Below, piece after piece: positions 1 to 26,010 of a stretch of 64,000 nt of DNA. A program made the translations under genes and the position numbers. The stretch spans positions 62,001 to 126,000 of the forward strand of contig NZ_JANFNY010000002.1 of NCBI RefSeq assembly GCF_024437745.1, in the 5' to 3' direction. The stretch comes from Roseomonas sp. GC11 (GTDB taxonomy: Bacteria > Pseudomonadota > Alphaproteobacteria > Acetobacterales > Acetobacteraceae). Below the pieces are notes generated by a model that was given only the letters and a program-made list of their open reading frames with translations, was not told where the DNA came from and searched no databases. Position 1 is the stretch's first letter. Each line of letters begins with the position of its first letter.

Positions 1-82
1 CATGACGGCCGGCCAGCCGCCGCGCCCGTACACGATCGGCCACCACAAGGCGTTCCTCCTGCGGCGGAGGGTCGGCGCATGA
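1..82 (+). CDS. 3' end of an upstream ICE gene, probably DUF2840 family (partial)
   Basis: Only the last 26 or so codons are inside the window, reading to a TGA at 80-82. This stop overlaps the ATG of the next gene as ATGA, which suggests translational coupling. The visible tail is basic and arginine-rich (ending FLLRRRVGA). In ICEs with this gene order a DUF2840 protein of unknown function usually lies directly before the TraF-type peptidase, and that context is the main reason for the call. The tail alone is too short to prove the family. Confidence 0.5.
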   Translation, partial: MTAGQPPRPYTIGHHKAFLLRRRVGA

Positions 83-624
83 GCCGCTTCGGCTACGTGA
101 TGGTCACCTACGTGATGACCATGGGAGTGGCGATCGTATCGTTCGTCCATTTCCCGACCAAGCTCATCTGGAACGCGTCCGCGAGCACGCCGATTGGCCT
201 CTACAGCATCGCGCCCACGCGCCATCTCGAAGTCACAGACCTGGTCGCCGTCCGTGCGCCCGAGCAGTTCGCCGCCCTCATGGTCGAGCGCGGCTACATC
301 GGTCGCGGCGTGCCGCTGATGAAGCGCGTCGCGGGCGTGCCGGGACAACAGGTCTGCCGTCGCGATCATGCGATCACGGTCGACGGCGTGCCGATGGGCG
401 ACGCGCTCGACCGCGATCATCTCGGCCGTCCGCTGCCCGTCTGGCAGGGCTGCCGCCGCATCGGCGAGGACGAGCTTTTCCTGATGAACTGGTTGGTCCC
501 CGACAGCCTCGACGGCCGCTATTTCGGCCCGCTGCCGACCAGCACCGTGATCGGCCGGGCGACCCCGCTCTGGACCGATGAAGACGGCGACGGCCGCTAC
601 GTCTGGCGCGCGCCGACCCACTGA
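79..624 (+). CDS. traF: S26 family signal peptidase, conjugative TraF type
   Basis: A 181-residue membrane-anchored serine peptidase related to RP4 TraF, which processes and cyclises the conjugative pilin; here the likely substrate is TrbC at 8262-8594. One N-terminal transmembrane segment (about residues 7-25) is followed by the S26 motif around residues 32-42 (NASASTPIGLY), with Ser36 the expected nucleophile. The LMKRVAGVPG block has Lys82 as the expected general base. Length fits TraF rather than the housekeeping LepB. It starts at ATG 79, overlapping the previous stop, and is followed 36 bp later by DUF736. It belongs to the DNA-processing half of the conjugation genes. Confidence 0.88.
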   Translation: MSRFGYVMVTYVMTMGVAIVSFVHFPTKLIWNASASTPIGLYSIAPTRHLEVTDLVAVRAPEQFAALMVERGYIGRGVPLMKRVAGVPGQQVCRRDHAITVDGVPMGDALDRDHLGRPLPVWQGCRRIGEDELFLMNWLVPDSLDGRYFGPLPTSTVIGRATPLWTDEDGDGRYVWRAPTH

Positions 625-660: not shown

Positions 661-1011
661 ATGACGCAGATCGGCCAATTCACCCGCACCAAATCCGGCT
701 ATTCCGGGCGGCTCACCGTGCTCGGCATCGATGCTGAACTCGTCCTTGTTCCGGCCGAGGCGTCCGATGCCGAGAATGCGCCGGACTACCGTGTGCTGCT
801 CGACGGCGAGGAAGGCAGCGAGGTCGGCGCCGGCTGGAAGCATGTCGGCGAGCGTGCCGGCGACTACGTCTCCGTGCAGCTCGACAGCCCGCTGTTCCCA
901 CGTCCGCTGCGCGCCAATCTCTTCCGCGCCAGCGACGACAACTCCACCTGGGGCCTGCATTGGTCGCGGCCCGCCAAGCCGCGCCCCAACACGCGCGACA
1001 GCGAGGACTGA
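661..1011 (+). CDS. DUF736 domain-containing protein
   Basis: This 116-residue protein covers the whole DUF736 family. The N-terminus (MTQIGQFTRTKSGYSGRL) and the C-terminal block ending in LHWSRP are typical. DUF736 proteins are common in alphaproteobacterial ICEs and plasmids beside traF and the relaxase; their function is unknown. A good ribosome-binding site (AAGGAG) lies just before ATG 661. The gene ends three bases before the GTG of the lytic transglycosylase, so the two are probably cotranscribed. No membrane segment or catalytic motif is visible. Confidence 0.85.
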   Translation: MTQIGQFTRTKSGYSGRLTVLGIDAELVLVPAEASDAENAPDYRVLLDGEEGSEVGAGWKHVGERAGDYVSVQLDSPLFPRPLRANLFRASDDNSTWGLHWSRPAKPRPNTRDSED

Positions 1012-1014
1012 GCG

Positions 1015-1791
1015 GTGCGCGGCCCGCATCGATCGCAGCATCATCGGAGCGGCACGGACAAGTCCCGTGCCGCCTCCCGGCTGCTCCTCCTTCTCTTTTC
1101 CGGCCTGCCGATCGCCGCTTCGCCAATGTCGCCGGCGCAGGCTCAGACCGTGCCGCCGGTTCCGGCCGAGGCGAGCACCCAACTCGCCGGCTTCGTGAGC
1201 GAGGCCTCGCAGCGGTTTGGCGTTCCGGTCGCCTGGATTCGCGCGCTCATGCGTGTCGAAAGCGCCAACGACGCGCGCGCCGTCTCGCCCAAGGGCGCGA
1301 TGGGCCTGATGCAGATCATGCCCGACACCTGGGCCTATCTGCGCACCCGCTATCGCCTTGGCAGCGATCCGTTCGATCCCCGCGACAACATCATCGCGGG
1401 AACGGCCTATATGCGCGAACTCTACGATCGCTACGGCGCGCCGGGCTTTCTCGCCGCCTACAATGCCGGACCCGGACGGTACGACGACTACCTCGCGAAC
1501 GGCCGCGCGTTGCCGGCCGAGACGCGCGCCTATGTCGCCCAGCTCACGCCCCTTGTCGGCGGCGAAGCGTCTCCGGCCATCGTCACTGTTGCTGCTGCCG
1601 ATCCGCTGGCGTGGACGCGCGCACCGCTCTTCATCGGCGCCTCTGATCGCGGTCCGGGCGCAGATCCGGTACGGGCCGATGCGCGGGCGCGTGACGGCGA
1701 CACCGCGGCGACACCACGTGATGCGGCGGCCGATGCGAACCCGACTGGCGGCCTGTTCGTCTCCCGCCGGGAGCCTGCAGGCCCGCGATGA
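1015..1791 (+). CDS. Lytic transglycosylase of the conjugation system (VirB1/TrbN-like)
   Basis: A 258-residue exported SLT-family enzyme expected to open peptidoglycan locally for assembly of the mating pore. The GTG start at 1015 gives a basic N-terminus and a hydrophobic signal segment (about residues 22-47, ending AQAQ). The SLT domain spans about residues 58-165. Glu82 in RVESAN is the expected catalytic acid, and the GLMQIMP and AYNAGPG motifs are both present. The C-terminal 80 residues are low-complexity. The oriT region and relaxase lie immediately downstream, a layout common in this ICE class. Confidence 0.88.
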   Translation: MRGPHRSQHHRSGTDKSRAASRLLLLLFSGLPIAASPMSPAQAQTVPPVPAEASTQLAGFVSEASQRFGVPVAWIRALMRVESANDARAVSPKGAMGLMQIMPDTWAYLRTRYRLGSDPFDPRDNIIAGTAYMRELYDRYGAPGFLAAYNAGPGRYDDYLANGRALPAETRAYVAQLTPLVGGEASPAIVTVAAADPLAWTRAPLFIGASDRGPGADPVRADARARDGDTAATPRDAAADANPTGGLFVSRREPAGPR

Positions 1792-2035
1792 CTGTCTCAC
1801 CCGTCCATCGCAGCGTGGCGAACCCCAGCGCAGTGTGGAGGGCGTTGGGAGGGAGGACCGGAAACACAACCGCACGATGGCAGGATAAAGGGGCGCGATG
1901 TGCGCCTTGGTTCGGTTGTGCTTTTTCAAGGGGTTATGGCGCGATTTCGCGAGGTGCGCCTGATCGGCGCAGCCTGCGCATCGGCGCATCCTCAAGCAGA
2001 ATCATCGCGTTGGCGCGATGTGCGGAGCGTCGGGC
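1792..2035. other. Putative origin of transfer (oriT) with nic site
   Basis: This 244-bp segment between the transglycosylase and relaxase genes has no convincing gene. On the minus strand it reads TATCCTG/C (plus positions 1887-1880), matching the YATCCTG/Y nic core of RP4/VirD2-type (MOBP) relaxases. Just 5' of it on that strand is a hairpin with arms GGCGC/GCGCC (1892-1896 and 1902-1906). An outer 8-bp inverted repeat, CACAACCG/CGGTTGTG (1865-1872 and 1913-1920), encloses both. The 13-mer GGCGCGATGTGCG recurs at 1892-1904 and 2012-2024, and its first 8 bases recur at 1938-1945. Cleavage is predicted between plus positions 1881 and 1880 on the minus strand, so the relaxase gene would enter last. 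This is an inference from motif and position. Confidence 0.72.
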
Positions 2036-3772
2036 ATGACCGACGAGCACGATTTTCGCATCCGGCCAGGCCGCATCCGCTCGACCAGCGCGCAGCGGGC
2101 GCGGCCCTTCATCGCCCAGGCGCTCGCGGCCGCTCAGCGCGCCGGCGGCAGCGTCTCCCGGCAAGGGAAGATCGGGTCGGGCGCGCGGTCCCGGTTCGGG
2201 CGCGGACAGCGCGCCTCGATCCAGGCGAACCGCCTCATCACCGCGCGCTCGCGCGGTGCGGTCATCAAGGCGCGCGTCGTCCGTCATGGCGCGCGGTCCG
2301 CGCCGCTCTCGACGCATCTCGATTATCTCCGCCGCGATGGCGTCACCCGCGACGGGGAGAAGGCCCGGCTGTTCGGTCCGGGCGGGGATGACGTCGACGC
2401 CAAGAACTTTGCGGAGCGGTCCGAGGAAGACCGCCACCATTTCCGCTTCATCGTCTCGCCGGACGACGCGCTGGAAATGTCCGATCTCAAGGGCTTCACC
2501 CGTGAGCTGGTCGGCCAGATGGAGAAGGACCTCGGCACGCGGCTCGAATGGGTCGCGGTCGATCACTGGAACACCGAGCATCCGCATGTCCATCTGATCG
2601 TCCGCGGCGTGCGCGACGACGGCGAGAACCTGGTCATCTCGCGCGACTATATAAAGGAGGGCATGCGCGATCGGGCGCGCGACCTGATCACCCAGGAGCT
2701 GGGGCCGCGCACCGATCAGGAGATCCGGCGGACGCTGGAGCGCCAGATCGACGCCGACCGCTGGACCAACCTCGATCGCCAGCTCGCCCGCGATGCCTAT
2801 CGCACCGGCGTCATCGATCTCACCCCGCATCCCGATCAACAGCCCGACGAGTTCCATGCGCTGAAGATCGGACGGCTGCGTAGGCTCGAAGGGCTCGGGC
2901 TCGCTGACGAGATCGGGCCGGGACAATGGACCATTTCGAACAAAGCCGAGGCGACCCTGCGCGAGCTCGGCGAGCGCGGCGACATCATCAAACGCATCCA
3001 CCACGGTCTGACCGAGCGCGGCATCGAGCGTGGCGCGGCGAGCTATGTGCTCGCGTCCGAGAGCCTCAGCGATCCGGTGATCGGGCGTCTGGTCGCCCGC
3101 GGCCTCGACGACGAGTTGAAGGGCACGGCCTTCGCCGTCGTCGACGGCGTCGACGGCCGCACCCATCACATCAAGCTGCCCGATCTCGATGCGGCCGGCG
3201 ACAGCGCGCCGGGCTCGATCGTTGAGCTTCGGAAGTTCGATGACGCGCGCGGCCAGCGCCGCGTGGCGATCGCGGTGCGCTCCGACCTCGACATCGAGCG
3301 GCAGGTCACCGCGACTGGCGCCACCTGGCTCGACCGGCAGAATATCGCCCGCGAGCCGGCAGCTCTCGGCGGCGGCTTCGGCGCCGAGGTGCGTGACGCC
3401 ATGGACCGGCGAGCCGAGCATCTTGTTGGCCAGGGCCTCGCCGAACACCAAAAGCGTGGCGTCAGTTTCCAGCCCGGCCTGGTCGACACGCTGCGACGTC
3501 GCGAACTCGAGGCGGTTGCCCAGCGCATCGCCGCTGAGACCGGACGGCCGCAGGTCAAGCCGGAGTCCGGCGAATATGTCACCGGCACCTACCAGCGGCG
3601 GCTGAACCTCGCGAGTGGCCGCTTCGCCATGATCGACGACGGGCTCGGCTTCAGCCTCGTGCCCTGGACGCCATCAATCGAGAAGCAGCTCGGCCGTCAC
3701 GTCTCCGGCGTCTCCCGGAGCGACGGCGGCGTCGACTGGAGCTTCGGCCGCCAGAGGGGGCTCGGCCTGTGA
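2036..3772 (+). CDS. Relaxase/mobilisation nuclease, VirD2-like with DUF3363
   Basis: This 578-residue protein is the likely relaxase that nicks oriT and pilots the transferred strand. About residues 60-200 form the VirD2-like relaxase domain, with the metal-binding motif HPHVH at residues 182-186; the rest matches the DUF3363 C-terminal region. The nucleophilic tyrosine is not assigned with certainty. ATG 2036 is preferred because GGAG lies at 2024-2027; an in-frame ATG at 2018 would add six residues and lies inside the repeated oriT 13-mer. The coupling-protein gene starts 28 bp downstream. Confidence 0.9.
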   Translation: MTDEHDFRIRPGRIRSTSAQRARPFIAQALAAAQRAGGSVSRQGKIGSGARSRFGRGQRASIQANRLITARSRGAVIKARVVRHGARSAPLSTHLDYLRRDGVTRDGEKARLFGPGGDDVDAKNFAERSEEDRHHFRFIVSPDDALEMSDLKGFTRELVGQMEKDLGTRLEWVAVDHWNTEHPHVHLIVRGVRDDGENLVISRDYIKEGMRDRARDLITQELGPRTDQEIRRTLERQIDADRWTNLDRQLARDAYRTGVIDLTPHPDQQPDEFHALKIGRLRRLEGLGLADEIGPGQWTISNKAEATLRELGERGDIIKRIHHGLTERGIERGAASYVLASESLSDPVIGRLVARGLDDELKGTAFAVVDGVDGRTHHIKLPDLDAAGDSAPGSIVELRKFDDARGQRRVAIAVRSDLDIERQVTATGATWLDRQNIAREPAALGGGFGAEVRDAMDRRAEHLVGQGLAEHQKRGVSFQPGLVDTLRRRELEAVAQRIAAETGRPQVKPESGEYVTGTYQRRLNLASGRFAMIDDGLGFSLVPWTPSIEKQLGRHVSGVSRSDGGVDWSFGRQRGLGL

Positions 3773-3800: not shown

Positions 3801-5795
3801 ATGTCCGCTACCAAGATCCTCTGGGGCCAGATCCTCACGGTCTTTGCCATCGTCCTGTTGACGACCTGGGGCGCCACGCAGTGGACAGCCTACCGTCTCG
3901 GCTTCCAGCCCCAGCTCGGACCGCCCTGGTTCATGCTCGGTCATTGGCCGATCTACTATCCGTGGTCCTTCTTCCCCTGGTGGTATTTCTACGACGCCTA
4001 CGCGCCGCCGATCTTCGTCGAGGGCGCCTATATCGCGGCGTCCGGCGGCTTCATCTCAATCGCCGTCGCCATCGGCATGTCGGTCTGGCGAGCCCGCGAG
4101 GCGAAGAATGCCGAGACCTTCGGCTCGGCGCGCTGGGCCCGCCATGACGAAGTGCGCGGCGCCGGCCTGCTCGGCGAGGACGGCGTGGTGCTCGGCAAGT
4201 TCGACCACGCCTATCTCCGGCACGACGGGCCTGAGCATGTGCTGTGCTTCGCGCCGACCCGGTCCGGCAAGGGCGTCGGCCTCGTCGTGCCGTCGCTGCT
4301 CACCTGGCCTGGCTCGGCGATCGTCCACGACATCAAGGGCGAGAACTGGACGCTGACCGCAGGCTTCCGCGCCCGCCATGGCCGCGTGCTCCTCTTCGAC
4401 CCGACCAACGCGAAGTCGGCCGCCTACAATCCGCTGCTCGAGGTGCGCCGCGGCGAATGGGAGGTCCGCGACGTGCAGAACATCGCCGACATCCTGGTCG
4501 ATCCGGAAGGCAGCCTCGAAAAGCGAAACCACTGGGAGAAGACCAGCCACGCGCTGCTGGTCGGCGCGATCCTGCATGTGCTCTATGCCGAGGAGGACAA
4601 GACGCTCGCCGGCGTCGCCGCCTTCCTCTCCGATCCGAAGCGGCCGATCGAATCCACCTTGGCGGCGATGATGAAGACCGCCCATCTCGGGGAGAGCGGA
4701 CCGCATCCGGTAATCGCGTCGGCCGCCCGCGAGCTGCTCAACAAATCCGACAACGAACGCTCCGGCGTGCTCTCGACCGCCATGTCATTCCTCGGCCTCT
4801 ATCGCGATCCCGTCGTAGCCGAGGTGACGCGCCGCTGCGACTGGCGCATCGCCGACATCGTTGGTGCCAAGCAGCCGACCAGCCTTTACCTGGTCGTGCC
4901 GCCGTCGGACATTGCCCGGACCAAGCCGCTCATCCGCCTCATCCTCAATCAGATCGGCCGGCGTCTGACCGAGGATCTCAAGGCCAAGGGCAACCGGCAT
5001 CGGCTGCTGCTGATGCTCGACGAGTTCCCGGCGCTCGGCCGGCTCGACTTCTTCGAATCCGCGCTCGCCTTCATGGCGGGCTATGGGTTGAAGGCGTTCC
5101 TGATCGCGCAGTCGCTGAACCAGATCGAGAAGGCCTACGGGCCGAACAACTCGATCCTCGACAACTGCCATGTCCGCGTCAGCTTCGCGACCAACGACGA
5201 ACGGACCGCCAAGCGCGTCTCCGACGCACTCGGGACCGCGACCGAGATGCGCGCCATGCGCAACTATGCCGGCCATCGGCTCTCGCCGTGGCTCGGTCAC
5301 CTGATGGTGTCGCGCTCGGAAACCGCGAGGCCGCTGCTCACGCCCGGCGAGATCATGCAGCTCCCGCCCGCCGACGAGATCGTCATGGTCGCGGGCACGC
5401 CGCCGATCCGCGCGAAGAAGGCGCGCTACTACGAGGATCGCCGCTTCAAGGATCGGATCACGGCGCCGCCGGCGGTCACCAGGCCGACGCAGCCGGGAAT
5501 GGACGATTGGAGCCGTCTACCACTTCCAGCCCGGCCGGCGAGCGCGGTGTCGCCAGGCGCGGCTGTCATCGAGGATGGTGGTGACGAAGATCCGACCGGA
5601 TCGGAACGTCGCTACCAACCGGAGCTGGAACGCGCCGCGCCGGTCGAGAAGAAGGCGCCGATCGAGAACGAGTTCGACGGCGGATTCGACGACGAGGCCG
5701 ATGACGACGCGGCCCGGATCAGCCGCGCCAACCAGATCATGCAGGGCGTGGCGCGTCAGGTCTCGCTCGACCCGAACGACGGCATGGAGCTGTGA
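3801..5795 (+). CDS. traG: Type IV coupling protein TraG/VirD4
   Basis: A 664-residue inner-membrane ATPase that links the relaxase-DNA complex to the Trb secretion channel. Hydrophobic segments at about residues 8-28 and 72-95 form the membrane anchor. The Walker A motif PTRSGKGV is at residues 152-159 and the Walker B motif MLDEFPALG at about 404-412. The IAQSLNQIEKAYG stretch is characteristic of the family. The C-terminal 100 residues are acidic and poorly conserved. Length is normal for TraG. It is followed 7 bp later by the CopG-like gene. Confidence 0.95.
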   Translation: MSATKILWGQILTVFAIVLLTTWGATQWTAYRLGFQPQLGPPWFMLGHWPIYYPWSFFPWWYFYDAYAPPIFVEGAYIAASGGFISIAVAIGMSVWRAREAKNAETFGSARWARHDEVRGAGLLGEDGVVLGKFDHAYLRHDGPEHVLCFAPTRSGKGVGLVVPSLLTWPGSAIVHDIKGENWTLTAGFRARHGRVLLFDPTNAKSAAYNPLLEVRRGEWEVRDVQNIADILVDPEGSLEKRNHWEKTSHALLVGAILHVLYAEEDKTLAGVAAFLSDPKRPIESTLAAMMKTAHLGESGPHPVIASAARELLNKSDNERSGVLSTAMSFLGLYRDPVVAEVTRRCDWRIADIVGAKQPTSLYLVVPPSDIARTKPLIRLILNQIGRRLTEDLKAKGNRHRLLLMLDEFPALGRLDFFESALAFMAGYGLKAFLIAQSLNQIEKAYGPNNSILDNCHVRVSFATNDERTAKRVSDALGTATEMRAMRNYAGHRLSPWLGHLMVSRSETARPLLTPGEIMQLPPADEIVMVAGTPPIRAKKARYYEDRRFKDRITAPPAVTRPTQPGMDDWSRLPLPARPASAVSPGAAVIEDGGDEDPTGSERRYQPELERAAPVEKKAPIENEFDGGFDDEADDDAARISRANQIMQGVARQVSLDPNDGMEL

Positions 5796-5802
5796 GGCGC
5801 CC

Positions 5803-6237
5803 ATGGCCAATCCATCGAAGAAGCAGCGCCTGTCGGTCTATCTCGAACCCGAGGTCATGAAGGCGCTCGCTGCCCATGCGGCCCGGCGCGATCAATCTCG
5901 CTCGCTGATCGCCGAGGCGGCAATCGCATCCTTCCTCTCCCCGGATGCTGCCGAGCGCCAAGAAGCGGCGACGACCAAGCGCCTCGACCAGCTCGACCGT
6001 CGCATGACCCGAATGGAGCGGGACGTCGGCATCTCGATCGAGATGCTCGCCGTGTTCGTGCGGTTCTGGCTGACCACCAACCCGCCGCTGCCCGAGCCCG
6101 CGCAGGCGGCAGCACGCGCCCAGGCGGGTGAGCGTTACGACGCGTTCGTCGCAGCGGTCGGCCGCAGGCTCGCCAAGGGTCCTAAGCTCCGGCAGGAGAT
6201 TTCCGAAGACATTAACGCGGTGAGCGGCGACAACTGA
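5803..6237 (+). CDS. CopG/ribbon-helix-helix family protein
   Basis: A 144-residue protein whose N-terminal 50 residues (KKQRLSVYLEPEVMKAL and the following RRDQSRSLIAEA) look like a ribbon-helix-helix DNA-binding fold. The remainder is mostly helical, with a probable coiled coil around residues 60-85. Small CopG-type proteins commonly sit between traG and trbB in these ICEs, where regulation of the trb operon or an accessory relaxosome role is suspected; neither is shown here. ATG 5803 is the first in-frame start after the traG stop at 5795. Here the usual next gene, trbB, is displaced by an inserted gene. Confidence 0.8.
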   Translation: MANPSKKQRLSVYLEPEVMKALAAHAARRDQSRSLIAEAAIASFLSPDAAERQEAATTKRLDQLDRRMTRMERDVGISIEMLAVFVRFWLTTNPPLPEPAQAAARAQAGERYDAFVAAVGRRLAKGPKLRQEISEDINAVSGDN

Positions 6238-6288: not shown

Positions 6289-7011
6289 TTGTCGATCCAC
6301 ATTTCCCATGACCAGAAATCGGGGCGTTGGTCCTTTTCTTATAGTCGCCATCTATTCGTCGCCGTCGGCATGGTGTTCCTGGCCGGCGGCATAGCGGCGC
6401 TTGCCGGGCCTTGGTGGCTACCCATCGCTGCGTTCGTTTTCGGAAAGATCGACGTCAAGATCGACTCGTCTGCCAACTATTGGGTAGCGGCTATCCTGAT
6501 CGTAGTCGGCCTATCAATCCTGGCATTCAAATTCTTCGTGCTCGATAAATGGGCGCACCGTCTGGCAATCGACAAAGAGACGATCGCCCGATCCCCTCCG
6601 GCAGCGCGGGAAGTGAAACGCTATTTCGATGATCTTCTAGACGACCACTCTTATCGCTCGAGTTTCGATACGCACTTCTATCGCGCGTACAATCAGTTCT
6701 CGGACGCTGCTAACGCTCTCCAAGACACAAAAACGGCGGCTCTCTTCAATACGTTTTCCACCGATGCAATGGCGTTACACCATTTTGTCGCACCGAATTT
6801 CTTCGTGTTCCCCGACAACCAAGGGCCCAATCCGGACTACCGGTATTGCTTAGCCCCACACATGAACATCGACCGGGACATGGTCTCCTCCGAGGTGAAG
6901 AAGGTTGAGCAGTACGACGAGTTGAAACGCGAACTCGCCGAGCGCGTCGCACAAGCTCGGCAATCCTACGACGCTTTTGTCCGTCGACTTAAGAAGCTTG
7001 GACATATCTAG
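6289..7011 (+). CDS. Unrecognised two-helix membrane protein, inserted ICE cargo gene
   Basis: A 240-residue protein that I do not recognise. The likely start is TTG 6289, with GGAG at 6275-6278; no in-frame ATG gives a sensible N-terminus. Two hydrophobic segments (about residues 24-54 and 62-84) are followed by a basic turn and a soluble domain of about 150 residues, rich in aromatic residues and ending in a charged helix (about 200-240). No catalytic motif is apparent. Base composition is clearly less GC-rich than the flanking tra/trb genes. It separates copG from trbB, which are normally adjacent, so it looks like an inserted cargo gene. Entry exclusion, phage defence or another accessory role are guesses only. 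Confidence 0.6.
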   Translation: MSIHISHDQKSGRWSFSYSRHLFVAVGMVFLAGGIAALAGPWWLPIAAFVFGKIDVKIDSSANYWVAAILIVVGLSILAFKFFVLDKWAHRLAIDKETIARSPPAAREVKRYFDDLLDDHSYRSSFDTHFYRAYNQFSDAANALQDTKTAALFNTFSTDAMALHHFVAPNFFVFPDNQGPNPDYRYCLAPHMNIDRDMVSSEVKKVEQYDELKRELAERVAQARQSYDAFVRRLKKLGHI

Positions 7012-22499: not shown

Positions 22500-22784
22500 A
22501 TGGCGATAGCGGAAACGAGGCAAATCAGGAGAACCATCCGGCGCCACCAACTGCGTGAGATGGTGCCACTGGCTGACAGTACGATCTATGAAATGGAGCA
22601 GCGTGGTGAATTCCCGCGACGCTTCGCGCTCTCCCCAAGATGCATTGTCTGGGACCTGGCCGAAGTCGAAGGATGGCTGGAGACACGGCGAGCGGCGCCT
22701 GTTCGTCGCGCTCAGCACCCCGATGTCACAAAGCGGAAGACGCGTCCCGTTAAAGCGCGGGATCAAGCTCCATCAGAGGCATAG
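22500..22784 (+). CDS. AlpA family phage regulatory protein/excisionase-like
   Basis: A 94-residue AlpA-type winged-helix protein. LREMVPLADSTIYEMEQRGEFPRRFALSPRCIVWDLAEVEGWLETR covers the family signature. AlpA proteins activate integrase genes or act as excisionases in P4-type islands and ICEs. ATG 22500 is chosen because GGAG lies at 22490-22493; an ATG at 22488 and longer upstream readings are less likely. Its 3' end overlaps the opposing integrase gene by 35 bp. Role: probable directionality or expression control of excision. Confidence 0.85.
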   Translation: MAIAETRQIRRTIRRHQLREMVPLADSTIYEMEQRGEFPRRFALSPRCIVWDLAEVEGWLETRRAAPVRRAQHPDVTKRKTRPVKARDQAPSEA

Positions 22785-24006
22785 CCGGCGGCAGCAGAGT
22801 TGGGGCATGCTTCCGGCCATCTACCCAAGCGTCCACGATGTCGGCCCACTCTTGCATCATATGGCGGCGCTGCACCTCATATTCCGCCTTGTTGTATACG
22901 CCCCGCGATGACCGACCGTCTTCATGCGCCAGGCACTTTTCGATCCAGTCGCGATTGAAGCCCAGCTCATTGAGTAGGGTCGATCCAGTCCGTCGCAGGT
23001 CGTGGACCGTGAATGGCTCGAGCGGCAGCCCATCTTCCCTGGCCTGCTCCACAACGGAATAAGTGACACGGTTGAAAGTCGCTCGAGACATTGGAGCATC
23101 GGCGTCGTAACGCGAAGGCAGCAGATACCGGGAGTTGCCGGCGCAGGTCTTGAGCGCAATCATAATGTCGAGAGTCTGGCGGCACAGATAGACGTTGTGC
23201 GCCTTCGACCGCTTCATCCGCTCCTTGGGAATCGTCCAGACGGCGTTCTCGAAGTCGACCTCGTCCCACACCGCGTCCTGCAGTTCGCTCTTGCGCACCA
23301 TCGTCAGCAAGAAGAGCCGCATTCCGAGCCGGATCGTCGGCAACGTCGCGACCTTTTCCAGCTCCTTCAACATCACTCGAATTTCCGCAGGCGAGAGCGC
23401 CCGATCCTTTGGCGTGAATGTCGCGATCGATGCGGGGCCTACGTCATCGGCCGGATTGGCAACCTTCTCTCCATGCAAGATCGCGAAGCCATAGATCTGC
23501 TTCAGGATATCCCGGACATGGATCGCTGTCGCCGGCGCGCCCCGATCGACAATCTTCCCGCAGTGGGCGCGAAGATCGTCTGGCGTGATCTCCGTGAGAA
23601 GGCGGTTGCGCCAGACTGGCAGTAGCTCACGCTCGAAAATGGAGCGACGCATCGCTCGGGTGCTGTCCGCCATCGGTGCATTGACCAGCCATTTTTCGCC
23701 GAACTCGCCGAAGCTCTTCGCTTCCTTGATACGACGCTTTTCGCGCTGCTTCTCAATGGCTGGCGACCGGCCCTCGCTGATCGCTCGCTTCGCATCCAGG
23801 CAGAGCTCCCGGGCTCGCGCCAGCGAGATTCCGTCTCGCCCGTATTTGCCCAAGTAGACCGTCTCGCGCCGCCCATTCAGCCGATAGTCCAGCCTGAACG
23901 AAAGGGCGCCTGACGGTGCGACGCGCACATACATGCCGTCGCGGTCCGTCACCTTGTACATTTTCTCTTTAGGTTTCAGTGCCTTGATCGCTGCATCCGT
24001 CAACAT
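22750..24006 (-). CDS. int: Tyrosine-type integrase of the ICE (P4-like, DUF4102 arm domain)
   Basis: A 418-residue site-specific recombinase expected to integrate and excise the ICE at guaA. The N-terminal arm-binding DUF4102 domain (about residues 1-85) is followed by a SAM-like core-binding domain (about 98-185) and the catalytic domain (about 200-385), with the full residue set Arg238, His335, Arg338, His361 and Tyr371. ATG 24006 has a GGAGGTG ribosome-binding site. It reads away from guaA, 292 bp downstream of the guaA stop and in the same direction. Repeated AGTACCGTCA sites flank its promoter. Confidence 0.93.
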   Translation of the reverse strand: MLTDAAIKALKPKEKMYKVTDRDGMYVRVAPSGALSFRLDYRLNGRRETVYLGKYGRDGISLARARELCLDAKRAISEGRSPAIEKQREKRRIKEAKSFGEFGEKWLVNAPMADSTRAMRRSIFERELLPVWRNRLLTEITPDDLRAHCGKIVDRGAPATAIHVRDILKQIYGFAILHGEKVANPADDVGPASIATFTPKDRALSPAEIRVMLKELEKVATLPTIRLGMRLFLLTMVRKSELQDAVWDEVDFENAVWTIPKERMKRSKAHNVYLCRQTLDIMIALKTCAGNSRYLLPSRYDADAPMSRATFNRVTYSVVEQAREDGLPLEPFTVHDLRRTGSTLLNELGFNRDWIEKCLAHEDGRSSRGVYNKAEYEVQRRHMMQEWADIVDAWVDGRKHAPTLLPPAMPLMELDPAL

Positions 24007-24298: not shown

Positions 24299-24320
24299 TC
24301 ATTCCCACTCGATGGTGCCG
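24299..24320. other. Probable ICE attachment site at the 3' end of guaA
   Basis: The guaA stop codon and last codons mark the boundary between ICE-type and host-type sequence. The 3' end of guaA is an established integration site for genomic islands with tyrosine integrases, and the integrase gene is adjacent. The exact core cannot be fixed because the second copy lies beyond the left edge of the window. The coding end is intact, as expected if the island carries the replaced terminal bases. Confidence 0.62.
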
Positions 24321-25873
24321 GGGGGCTTGCTGGTGATGTCGTAGGTGACGCGGTTGATGCCGCGCACCTCGTTCACGATGCGCCCGGCCACGCGGGTCAG
24401 GAACTCCATCGAGAAGGGATAGACATCGGCGGTCATGCCGTCGGTGCTGGTGACAGCGCGCAGGGCACAGGCCTGGTCATAGGTGCGGCCATCGCCCATC
24501 ACGCCCACGGTGCGCACCGGCAGCAGCACGGCGAAGGCCTGCCAGATCGCGTCGTACAGGCCGGCGGCGCGGATTTCTTCCAGGTAGATGGTGTCCACCT
24601 TCTGGAGGAGCTGCACCTTCTCGCGCGTCACCTCGCCGGGGATGCGGATGGCCAGCCCCGGCCCCGGGAAGGGGTGGCGGCCGACGATCTCCTCCGGCAG
24701 GCCGAGTTCGCGGCCGAGCGCGCGCACCTCGTCCTTGAACAGGTCGCGCAGCGGCTCCACCAGCTTCATCCGCATGTCCTCGGGCAGGCCGCCGACATTG
24801 TGGTGGGACTTGATGGTGACGGAGGGGCCGCCGGTGGCCGAGACACTCTCGATCACATCCGGGTAGAGCGTGCCCTGGGCGAGGAAGTCGGCGCCGCCGA
24901 GCTTGGCCTGCTCCTCCTCGAACACCTCGATGAAGAGGCGGCCGATGGTCTTGCGCTTCTTCTCGGGGTCGGTGACGCCGGCGAGCTGGCCCAGGAAGAG
25001 GTCCGAGGCGTCGCGGTGCACCAGCTTGATGTTGAAGCGGTCGCGGAAGGTGGCCACCACCTGCTCCGTCTCGCCCGCGCGCATCACGCCGTGGTCGACA
25101 TAGATGCAGGTCAGCTGGTCGCCAATCGCCTCATGGATCAGCACGGCGGCCACCGAGGAATCGACGCCGCCGGAGAGGCCGCAGATCACCTTGCCGCTGC
25201 CGACCTGGGCGCGGATGCGGGCGATGGCCTCGGCGCGGAAGGCGGCCATGGTCCAGTCGCCCGCGCAGCCGCAGACGCCATGGGTGAAGTTCTTCAGCAG
25301 CGCCGCGCCATGCGGGGTGTGCACCACCTCCGGGTGGAACTGGATGCCGTAGAAGCGGCGGCTATCATCGGCCACCATGGCGTAGGGCGCGCCCTCGCTC
25401 ACCGCGACGATGCGGAAGCCCTCGGGCAGGGCGGCGACGCGGTCGCCATGGCTCATCCACACCTGCTCGCGCGCGCCGGGGGACCACAGCTCGCGCGTCA
25501 GGGCGCAGGCTTCCCTCACCTCGACATAGGCGCGGCCATATTCCTGGTGGTCGCTCTTCTCGACCCGCCCGCCGAGCTGCATGCACATGGTCTGCTGGCC
25601 GTAGCAGATGCCAAGGACGGGGATGCCCATCTCGAACACCACCTGCGGCGCGCGGGGGCTGCCCTCATCCACCGTGCTGGCCGGGCCGCCGGAGAGGATG
25701 ATGCCCCGCGGCGCGAAGGCCTGGATGCGCGAGGCCTCGGCCGTGAAGGGCCAGATCTCGCAATAGACCCCGGCTTCCCGCAGGCGCCGCGCGATCAGCT
25801 GCGTCACCTGGCTGCCGAAATCGAGGATGAGGATGCGGTCGTGATGGACGCTGGGGGAGGTCAGGTCGGTCAT
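24299..25873 (-). CDS. guaA: GMP synthase (glutamine-hydrolysing)
   Basis: A 524-residue enzyme converting XMP to GMP with ATP and glutamine, the last step of GMP synthesis. The N-terminal class I glutamine amidotransferase domain has the triad Cys90 (GICYGQQ), His180 and Glu182. The ATP pyrophosphatase loop SGGVDSS is at residues 234-240, and the C-terminal dimerisation domain ends in the usual [11 protein letters not shown] 25873 gives the normal N-terminus; an open extension upstream is not conserved. Full length despite the island at its 3' end. Confidence 0.97.
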
Positions 25874-26010
25874 GCGGGCTTCCACCACAGTCCTGTTTCG
25901 ATGGCAAGGCTTTCGCGCGCCACAACAGGGTTGCGAAGGTGGCACCCCTCTTGATCCGCGCGCCCGCCCCCGCCACCGTGGCGGTCCAGAGCCCGCAGGA
26001 GCGCTTGCCC

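Follow-up and report, generated by a model that had tools for sequence, protein, structure and literature searches.

A probable origin of transfer upstream of rlxS in a Roseomonas ICE, with repeat units whose dialect follows residue 9 of a CopG-family protein

The origin of transfer (oriT) of ICEMlSymR7A was cloned from the region upstream of rlxS and mobilised by the ICE (Verdonk et al. 2019, as cited in PMC11963761), in an element whose genes run rdfS-traF-msi107, followed by oriT and rlxS (PMC11963761, PMC8627217). In ICEKKS102Tn4677, a member of the Tn4371 family, deletion mapping narrowed the essential oriT to 58 bp of the traF-traI region (positions 261-318); the minimal oriT comprises a conserved 20-mer containing CAAAAGG together with an 8-nt inverted repeat, and the authors propose TraR, not CopG, as the accessory protein (PMC11448139). 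The nic consensus of MOBP systems is (C/T)ATCCTG(C/T) with an adjoining hairpin (PMC3772185). In staphylococcal pWBG749 plasmids, ribbon residue 7 of SmpO alone switches oriT specificity; such switches recur, and mimics occur (PMC8136818). A literature search that covered few subscription papers found no description of a ribbon-helix-helix (RHH) or CopG protein in RlxS or Tn4371 oriTs. To our knowledge, there is neither a nick map nor an accessory protein for the oriT of ICEMlSymR7A.

The window (the whole stretch of 64,000 nucleotides of Roseomonas sp. GC11 DNA that was analysed) begins within a conjugative element with the gene order traF-DUF736-SLT-oriT-rlxS-traG-copG-trb (Table 1), which agrees with ICEMlSymR7A in placing oriT upstream of rlxS in a conserved order. 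Judging from the sequence comparisons below, the region between the SLT and rlxS genes is very probably the oriT of an RlxS-type ICE. A preliminary description had proposed an oriT here, and the proposal gains support from its position, which is that of the oriT cloned from ICEMlSymR7A according to the citation in PMC11963761, and from its core and hairpin, laid out as in the mapped minimal oriT of an ICE of the Tn4371 family (PMC11448139). The relaxase matches Pfam Relaxase and NCBIfam RlxS/MobP3, with a score of 580 bits that lies below the NCBIfam RlxS cut-off of 850; its ORF start at 2018 falls within the last repeat, and named relatives begin at approximately the equivalent of 2036. Encoded upstream of the window are an HTH_17 protein, replication initiator A, a ParA-family protein (weak VirC1 match) and then an 85-aa RHH-like protein, and this last pair, upstream of traF (L183:18672-19564), recalls VirC1/VirC2 at the T-DNA overdrive. 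A tyrosine recombinase gene (22750-24006, minus strand) adjoins guaA, encoding GMP synthase (24299-25945, minus strand), and this is probably where the integrated ICE ends. An ORF of 240 aa (6289-7011), for which a Pfam search gave no match, lies between copG and trbB; because related elements carry other, unrelated genes (HipA, Fic) at this spot, it looks like a cargo site.

Table 1. Features of the putative oriT and its neighbouring genes (columns: feature, position in the window, strand, remarks; a slash within a sequence marks the predicted cut)
traF, S26 peptidase	79-624	+	
DUF736 protein	661-1011	+	
SLT transglycosylase	1015-1791	+	gene-order place is that of msi107 in ICEMlSymR7A (PMC8627217)
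Intergenic region with the putative oriT	1792-2035		between the SLT ORF end (1791) and the relaxase start (ORF 2018; ~2036 by homology)
Left outer arm CACAACCG	1865-1872		no covariation
Nic core, minus strand CCTTTATCCTG/CC	1879-1891	-	predicted cut between 1881 and 1880; conserved in 97/100 relatives; matches the MOBP consensus
Nic-proximal hairpin GGCGC-GATGT-GCGCC	1892-1906		holds repeat unit 1; stem conserved despite sequence turnover
Repeat unit 1, GCGATGTGC	1895-1903	+	dialect B; offset +16
Right outer arm CGGTTGTG	1913-1920		no covariation
Repeat unit 2, GCGAGGTGC	1949-1957	+	offset +70
Degenerate unit GCAGCCTGC	1969-1977		third position of the family, +90
Repeat unit 4, GCGATGTGC	2015-2023	+	offset +136; the likely start codon of the relaxase follows after 12 bp
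rlxS relaxase	2036-3772 (ORF opens 2018)	+	NCBIfam RlxS / Pfam Relaxase + DUF3363
traG coupling protein	3801-5795	+	
copG, 144-aa RHH protein	5803-6237	+	residue 9 is Arg, as in dialect B; candidate accessory factor of the relaxosome

The plus strand carries the core GGCAGGATAAAGG upstream of the RlxS/DUF3363 relaxase gene, and its minus strand, TTTATCCTG/CC, fits the MOBP nic consensus. The TATCCTG/C motif reported earlier on the minus strand is present as TATCCTGC over 1887-1880 and includes the ATCCTG nic hexamer of MOBP oriTs. Taken alone, YATCCTGY was rejected as evidence since it is too common in the window (23 matches compared to 7.2 expected); the family core GGCRRGATAAARG has its sole exact match in the window at the position listed. 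RlxS relatives were fetched by protein similarity, and the 100 with non-redundant upstream regions were retained. Conservation among relatives with the same relaxase had been named in advance as a check on the motif, and a weight matrix whose training set excluded the window located the core GGCNNGATAAA on the plus strand in 97 of these 100 RlxS loci, mostly ~115-190 bp before the first residue of the query. The best core match in the upstream 480 nt outscored every gene-body control in 97 of the 100 loci and kept to a single strand in 98, while no recognisable nic core was found upstream of one RlxS relative with 69% identity (L157). The minus-strand core of the family is TTTATCNNG/CC, with TATCCTG in 36 of 97 loci, TATCTCG in 27, TATCTTG in 22 and others in 12, and many relatives relax the nic hexamer to ATCNNG. 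The window fits the MOBP consensus and the RlxS family is looser; the ATCCTG motif of the preliminary description holds for the window, but the family conserves its own core rather than the hexamer. A covariance model of core and hairpin, with the window in its training set, scored 69 bits at this site compared to 16.6 for the next and found no second convincing site in the 5.25-Mb genome.

The GGCGC/GCGCC hairpin described beside the core is likewise present; on the minus strand it precedes the core by 4 nt, and the locus possesses the MOBP-type inverted repeat immediately 5' of nic. In most elements the stem directly follows the core, with letters that vary between elements. Summed stem length reached 488, compared to 267 +- 9 in shuffles (97 loci, 48 different arms), partner shuffles matched the observed pairing in 1 of 1000, and slid registers were also exceeded; these stem-length and partner-shuffle tests were relied on, and a stem-pair count was set aside because its input had been pre-filtered to sequences with 3 or more of 5 pairs. 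As a single strand, the sequence folds better than all 200 of its shuffles (z -2.65). The arms said to enclose the whole exist as well (CACAACCG and CGGTTGTG), but evidence of a role for them did not emerge: their conservation is found mainly in close relatives, and they were rejected as a covarying structure, with covariation absent and register specificity confined to close relatives.

The 13-mer GGCGCGATGTGCG, noted earlier as repeated beside the relaxase start, occurs at 1892-1904 and 2012-2024 and contains a 9-bp unit. It belongs to a larger set, since the unit occurs a third time (GCGAGGTGC) and, in degenerate form, a fourth time between the two. Elements carry up to four units, and all three dialects of the family use the same fixed offsets from the core (+16, +70, +90 and +136); the first unit falls within the hairpin and the last next to the start of the relaxase. 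The 9-mer at the hairpin centre recurs downstream in 0.76 exact copies per element, compared to 0.0035 when words are shuffled and 0.06 when those of other elements are used. The dialects read GCAAKGTGC (A), GCGAKGTGC (B, that of the window) and GCACGGTGC (C); the copies of one element belong to one dialect, and mixed elements are rare. Dialect clusters on the relaxase tree, where 10 changes are needed compared to the least possible 2. Five distant elements (L251, L261, L265, L272 and L282), with the CopG ribbon RDRMNVYF or a similar one, carry repeats of another kind, centred on GTGCCG/CGGCAC, which may be a fourth dialect.

CopG matches Pfam RHH_1 above the cut-off, and residue 9 opens the match; the ribbon is the DNA-contacting part of RHH proteins. 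Columns of RlxS, DUF736, SLT, TraF and CopG were scored for how well they predict dialect, with the dialect definitions fixed before CopG was inspected. Residue 9 of CopG (Arg, Gln or Lys) predicted the dialect in 83 of the 88 elements with a readable residue, being Gln in 35 of 39 elements of dialect A, Arg in all 31 readable elements of dialect B and Lys in 17 of 18 of dialect C. Leave-one-out accuracy was 0.98 for this residue, followed by 0.88 for the next CopG column and 0.76 for the best RlxS column, while the best column of DUF736, SLT or TraF reached 0.68. RlxS and these three proteins were rejected as readers of the repeats since none has a column that follows dialect. All 19 held-out loci with a callable dialect and a canonical residue agreed (12 of 12 unnamed and 7 of 7 named plasmid loci); the 12 unnamed loci, which were fetched later, are also counted within the 88. 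Exceptions in dialect A have Pro (L049 and L254), Phe (L283) or Arg (L060), two dialect A elements with Pro or Phe being among the later-fetched loci, and a further exception (L158) combines mixed B/C units with Arg. In the closest pairs of unlike dialect, the relaxases are 78-86% alike and the CopG proteins 68-85% alike while residue 9 differs, which favours change in place over gene replacement. Strongly supported branches hold approximately five dialect switches, all in the right direction or neutral; phylogeny therefore limits formal significance, and the sign test does not reach significance by itself. A more distant CopG group (~50% identity, ribbon RDRMNVYF) has Arg at the same position yet uses other repeats, so the residue-9 code is valid only in the nearer subfamily. 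Arg-G, Gln-A and Lys-G are classical protein-DNA contacts. CopG homologues were present in all 67 genomes or records searched. Searches against solved structures and folds returned only weak RHH matches for CopG (E 0.025 or worse), none of them significant, and its structure model is of low confidence (mean pLDDT 67). Two Paracoccus plasmids (L353 and L354) carry copG homologues, with conjugation genes and a recognisable core absent nearby.

It appears likely that these features belong to one system, an RlxS-type oriT nicked on the minus strand, with units bound by CopG and specificity set by residue 9. RlxS would recognise the nic-proximal hairpin and nick the minus strand at TTTATCCTG/CC (1881/1880); the transferred strand is predicted to lead towards traF/parA, so that the tra genes would enter last. 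The 9-bp units, at up to four places, would be bound by the RHH protein of the CopG family whose gene lies between traG and trbB, with residue 9 in the ribbon picking the unit (Arg for GCGA, Gln for GCAA, Lys for GCAC), each facing a constant GTGC half. By analogy with staphylococcal SmpO, CopG is probably the accessory factor of the relaxosome on which oriT specificity depends: in recruiting or positioning the relaxase, it would give the oriT an element-specific address in transfer, and from the last site it would probably also repress rlxS.

This last role could be the only one, with the region being an oriT in which the repeats are merely rlxS transcriptional operators and CopG an ordinary repressor with no part in the relaxosome. 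In each of the three dialects the last unit adjoins the relaxase start, and some copG copies are annotated as CopG transcriptional regulators. However, the nic-proximal hairpin contains unit 1 and more copies occupy the middle of the region, places where known RHH accessory factors bind (PMC8136818), and the operator and relaxosome roles are mutually compatible; we regard a purely regulatory role as unlikely. It is less probable still that CopG merely travels with the dialect and that the reader of the repeats is another protein, be it RlxS, DUF736, an RdfS-like factor or the ParA/small-RHH pair. While the clustering of dialect on the relaxase tree, the VirC1-like ParA and 85-aa RHH-like protein encoded upstream and the requirement of ICEMlSymR7A oriT mobilisation for RdfS (PMC11963761) would suit such a reader, no column of RlxS, DUF736, SLT or TraF approaches CopG residue 9. 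Chance or regulatory sequence (promoter, terminator or attenuator) with no transfer function is a highly improbable source of the motif and repeats, since, common as YATCCTGY alone is in the window, the core, strand, position and hairpin are conserved across distant relatives and two related ICEs have functional oriTs in the same place (PMC11963761, PMC11448139).

The core-hairpin model also detected orphan copies without a nearby relaxase gene. Five loci (L342, L343, L345, L347 and L350) have core and hairpin with rlxS absent within ~4 kb; only a C-terminal fragment of rlxS lies near that of L343, and L345 and L347 have similar flanking sequence. A further locus (L344) has core and hairpin and keeps traF-DUF736-SLT, with rlxS absent. 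It is possible that the orphan copies are oriT mimics on mobilisable islands. With some hesitation, we lean towards a wider reading in which RlxS ICEs share one oriT scaffold with interchangeable address words read by the residue-9 code of CopG, the whole set of words has switched repeatedly, and the orphan copies are mimics exploiting a given address. RlxS-type ICEs are widespread in the Alphaproteobacteria, where they include symbiosis islands and degradative elements, and Tn4371-like elements extend their range to the Beta- and Gammaproteobacteria. A common core would allow their oriTs to be located from sequence, which oriTfinder failed to do in one tested case (PMC11448139), and a one-residue code, if true, would predict which elements mobilise which oriT.

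The exact layout, previously thought to be undescribed, is known in kind, whereas neither the repeats nor the protein likely to read them seems to be described for the RlxS family. ICEMlSymR7A shares with the window traF, DUF736, msi107, oriT, rlxS, traG and trb, with oriT directly upstream of rlxS. The oriT of ICEKKS102 is similarly placed upstream of the relaxase gene, and a conserved core with 8-nt hairpin arms suffices for its transfer. In a Tn4371-type locus of Pseudomonas aeruginosa plasmid pPUV-4, used as a stand-in for ICEKKS102, the equivalent region has GGCAAGACAAAAGG, closely followed by GACGCGGC-ACCGG-GCCGCGTC, at positions 273-306. Since core and hairpin recur there as here, the published minimal oriT and that of the window appear to be one design, although the pPUV-4 core has TGTCTTG rather than TATCCTG and copies of the window's units are absent there. 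The RP4 oriT and the VirD2 T-DNA border likewise combine a TATCCTG/C core with an inverted repeat that immediately precedes it on the 5' side (PMC3772185); compared to these, the RlxS family tolerates ATCNNG and RlxS has DUF3363. The SmpO-oriT system resembles the present one in its RHH protein, several oriT sites, link to a ribbon residue, repeated evolutionary switching and orphan oriT copies. It differs in its unrelated host and relaxase, in having smpO beside oriT and in its two GNNNNC sites, compared to up to four GCNNNNNGC sites and a copG gene ~4 kb from oriT in the window.
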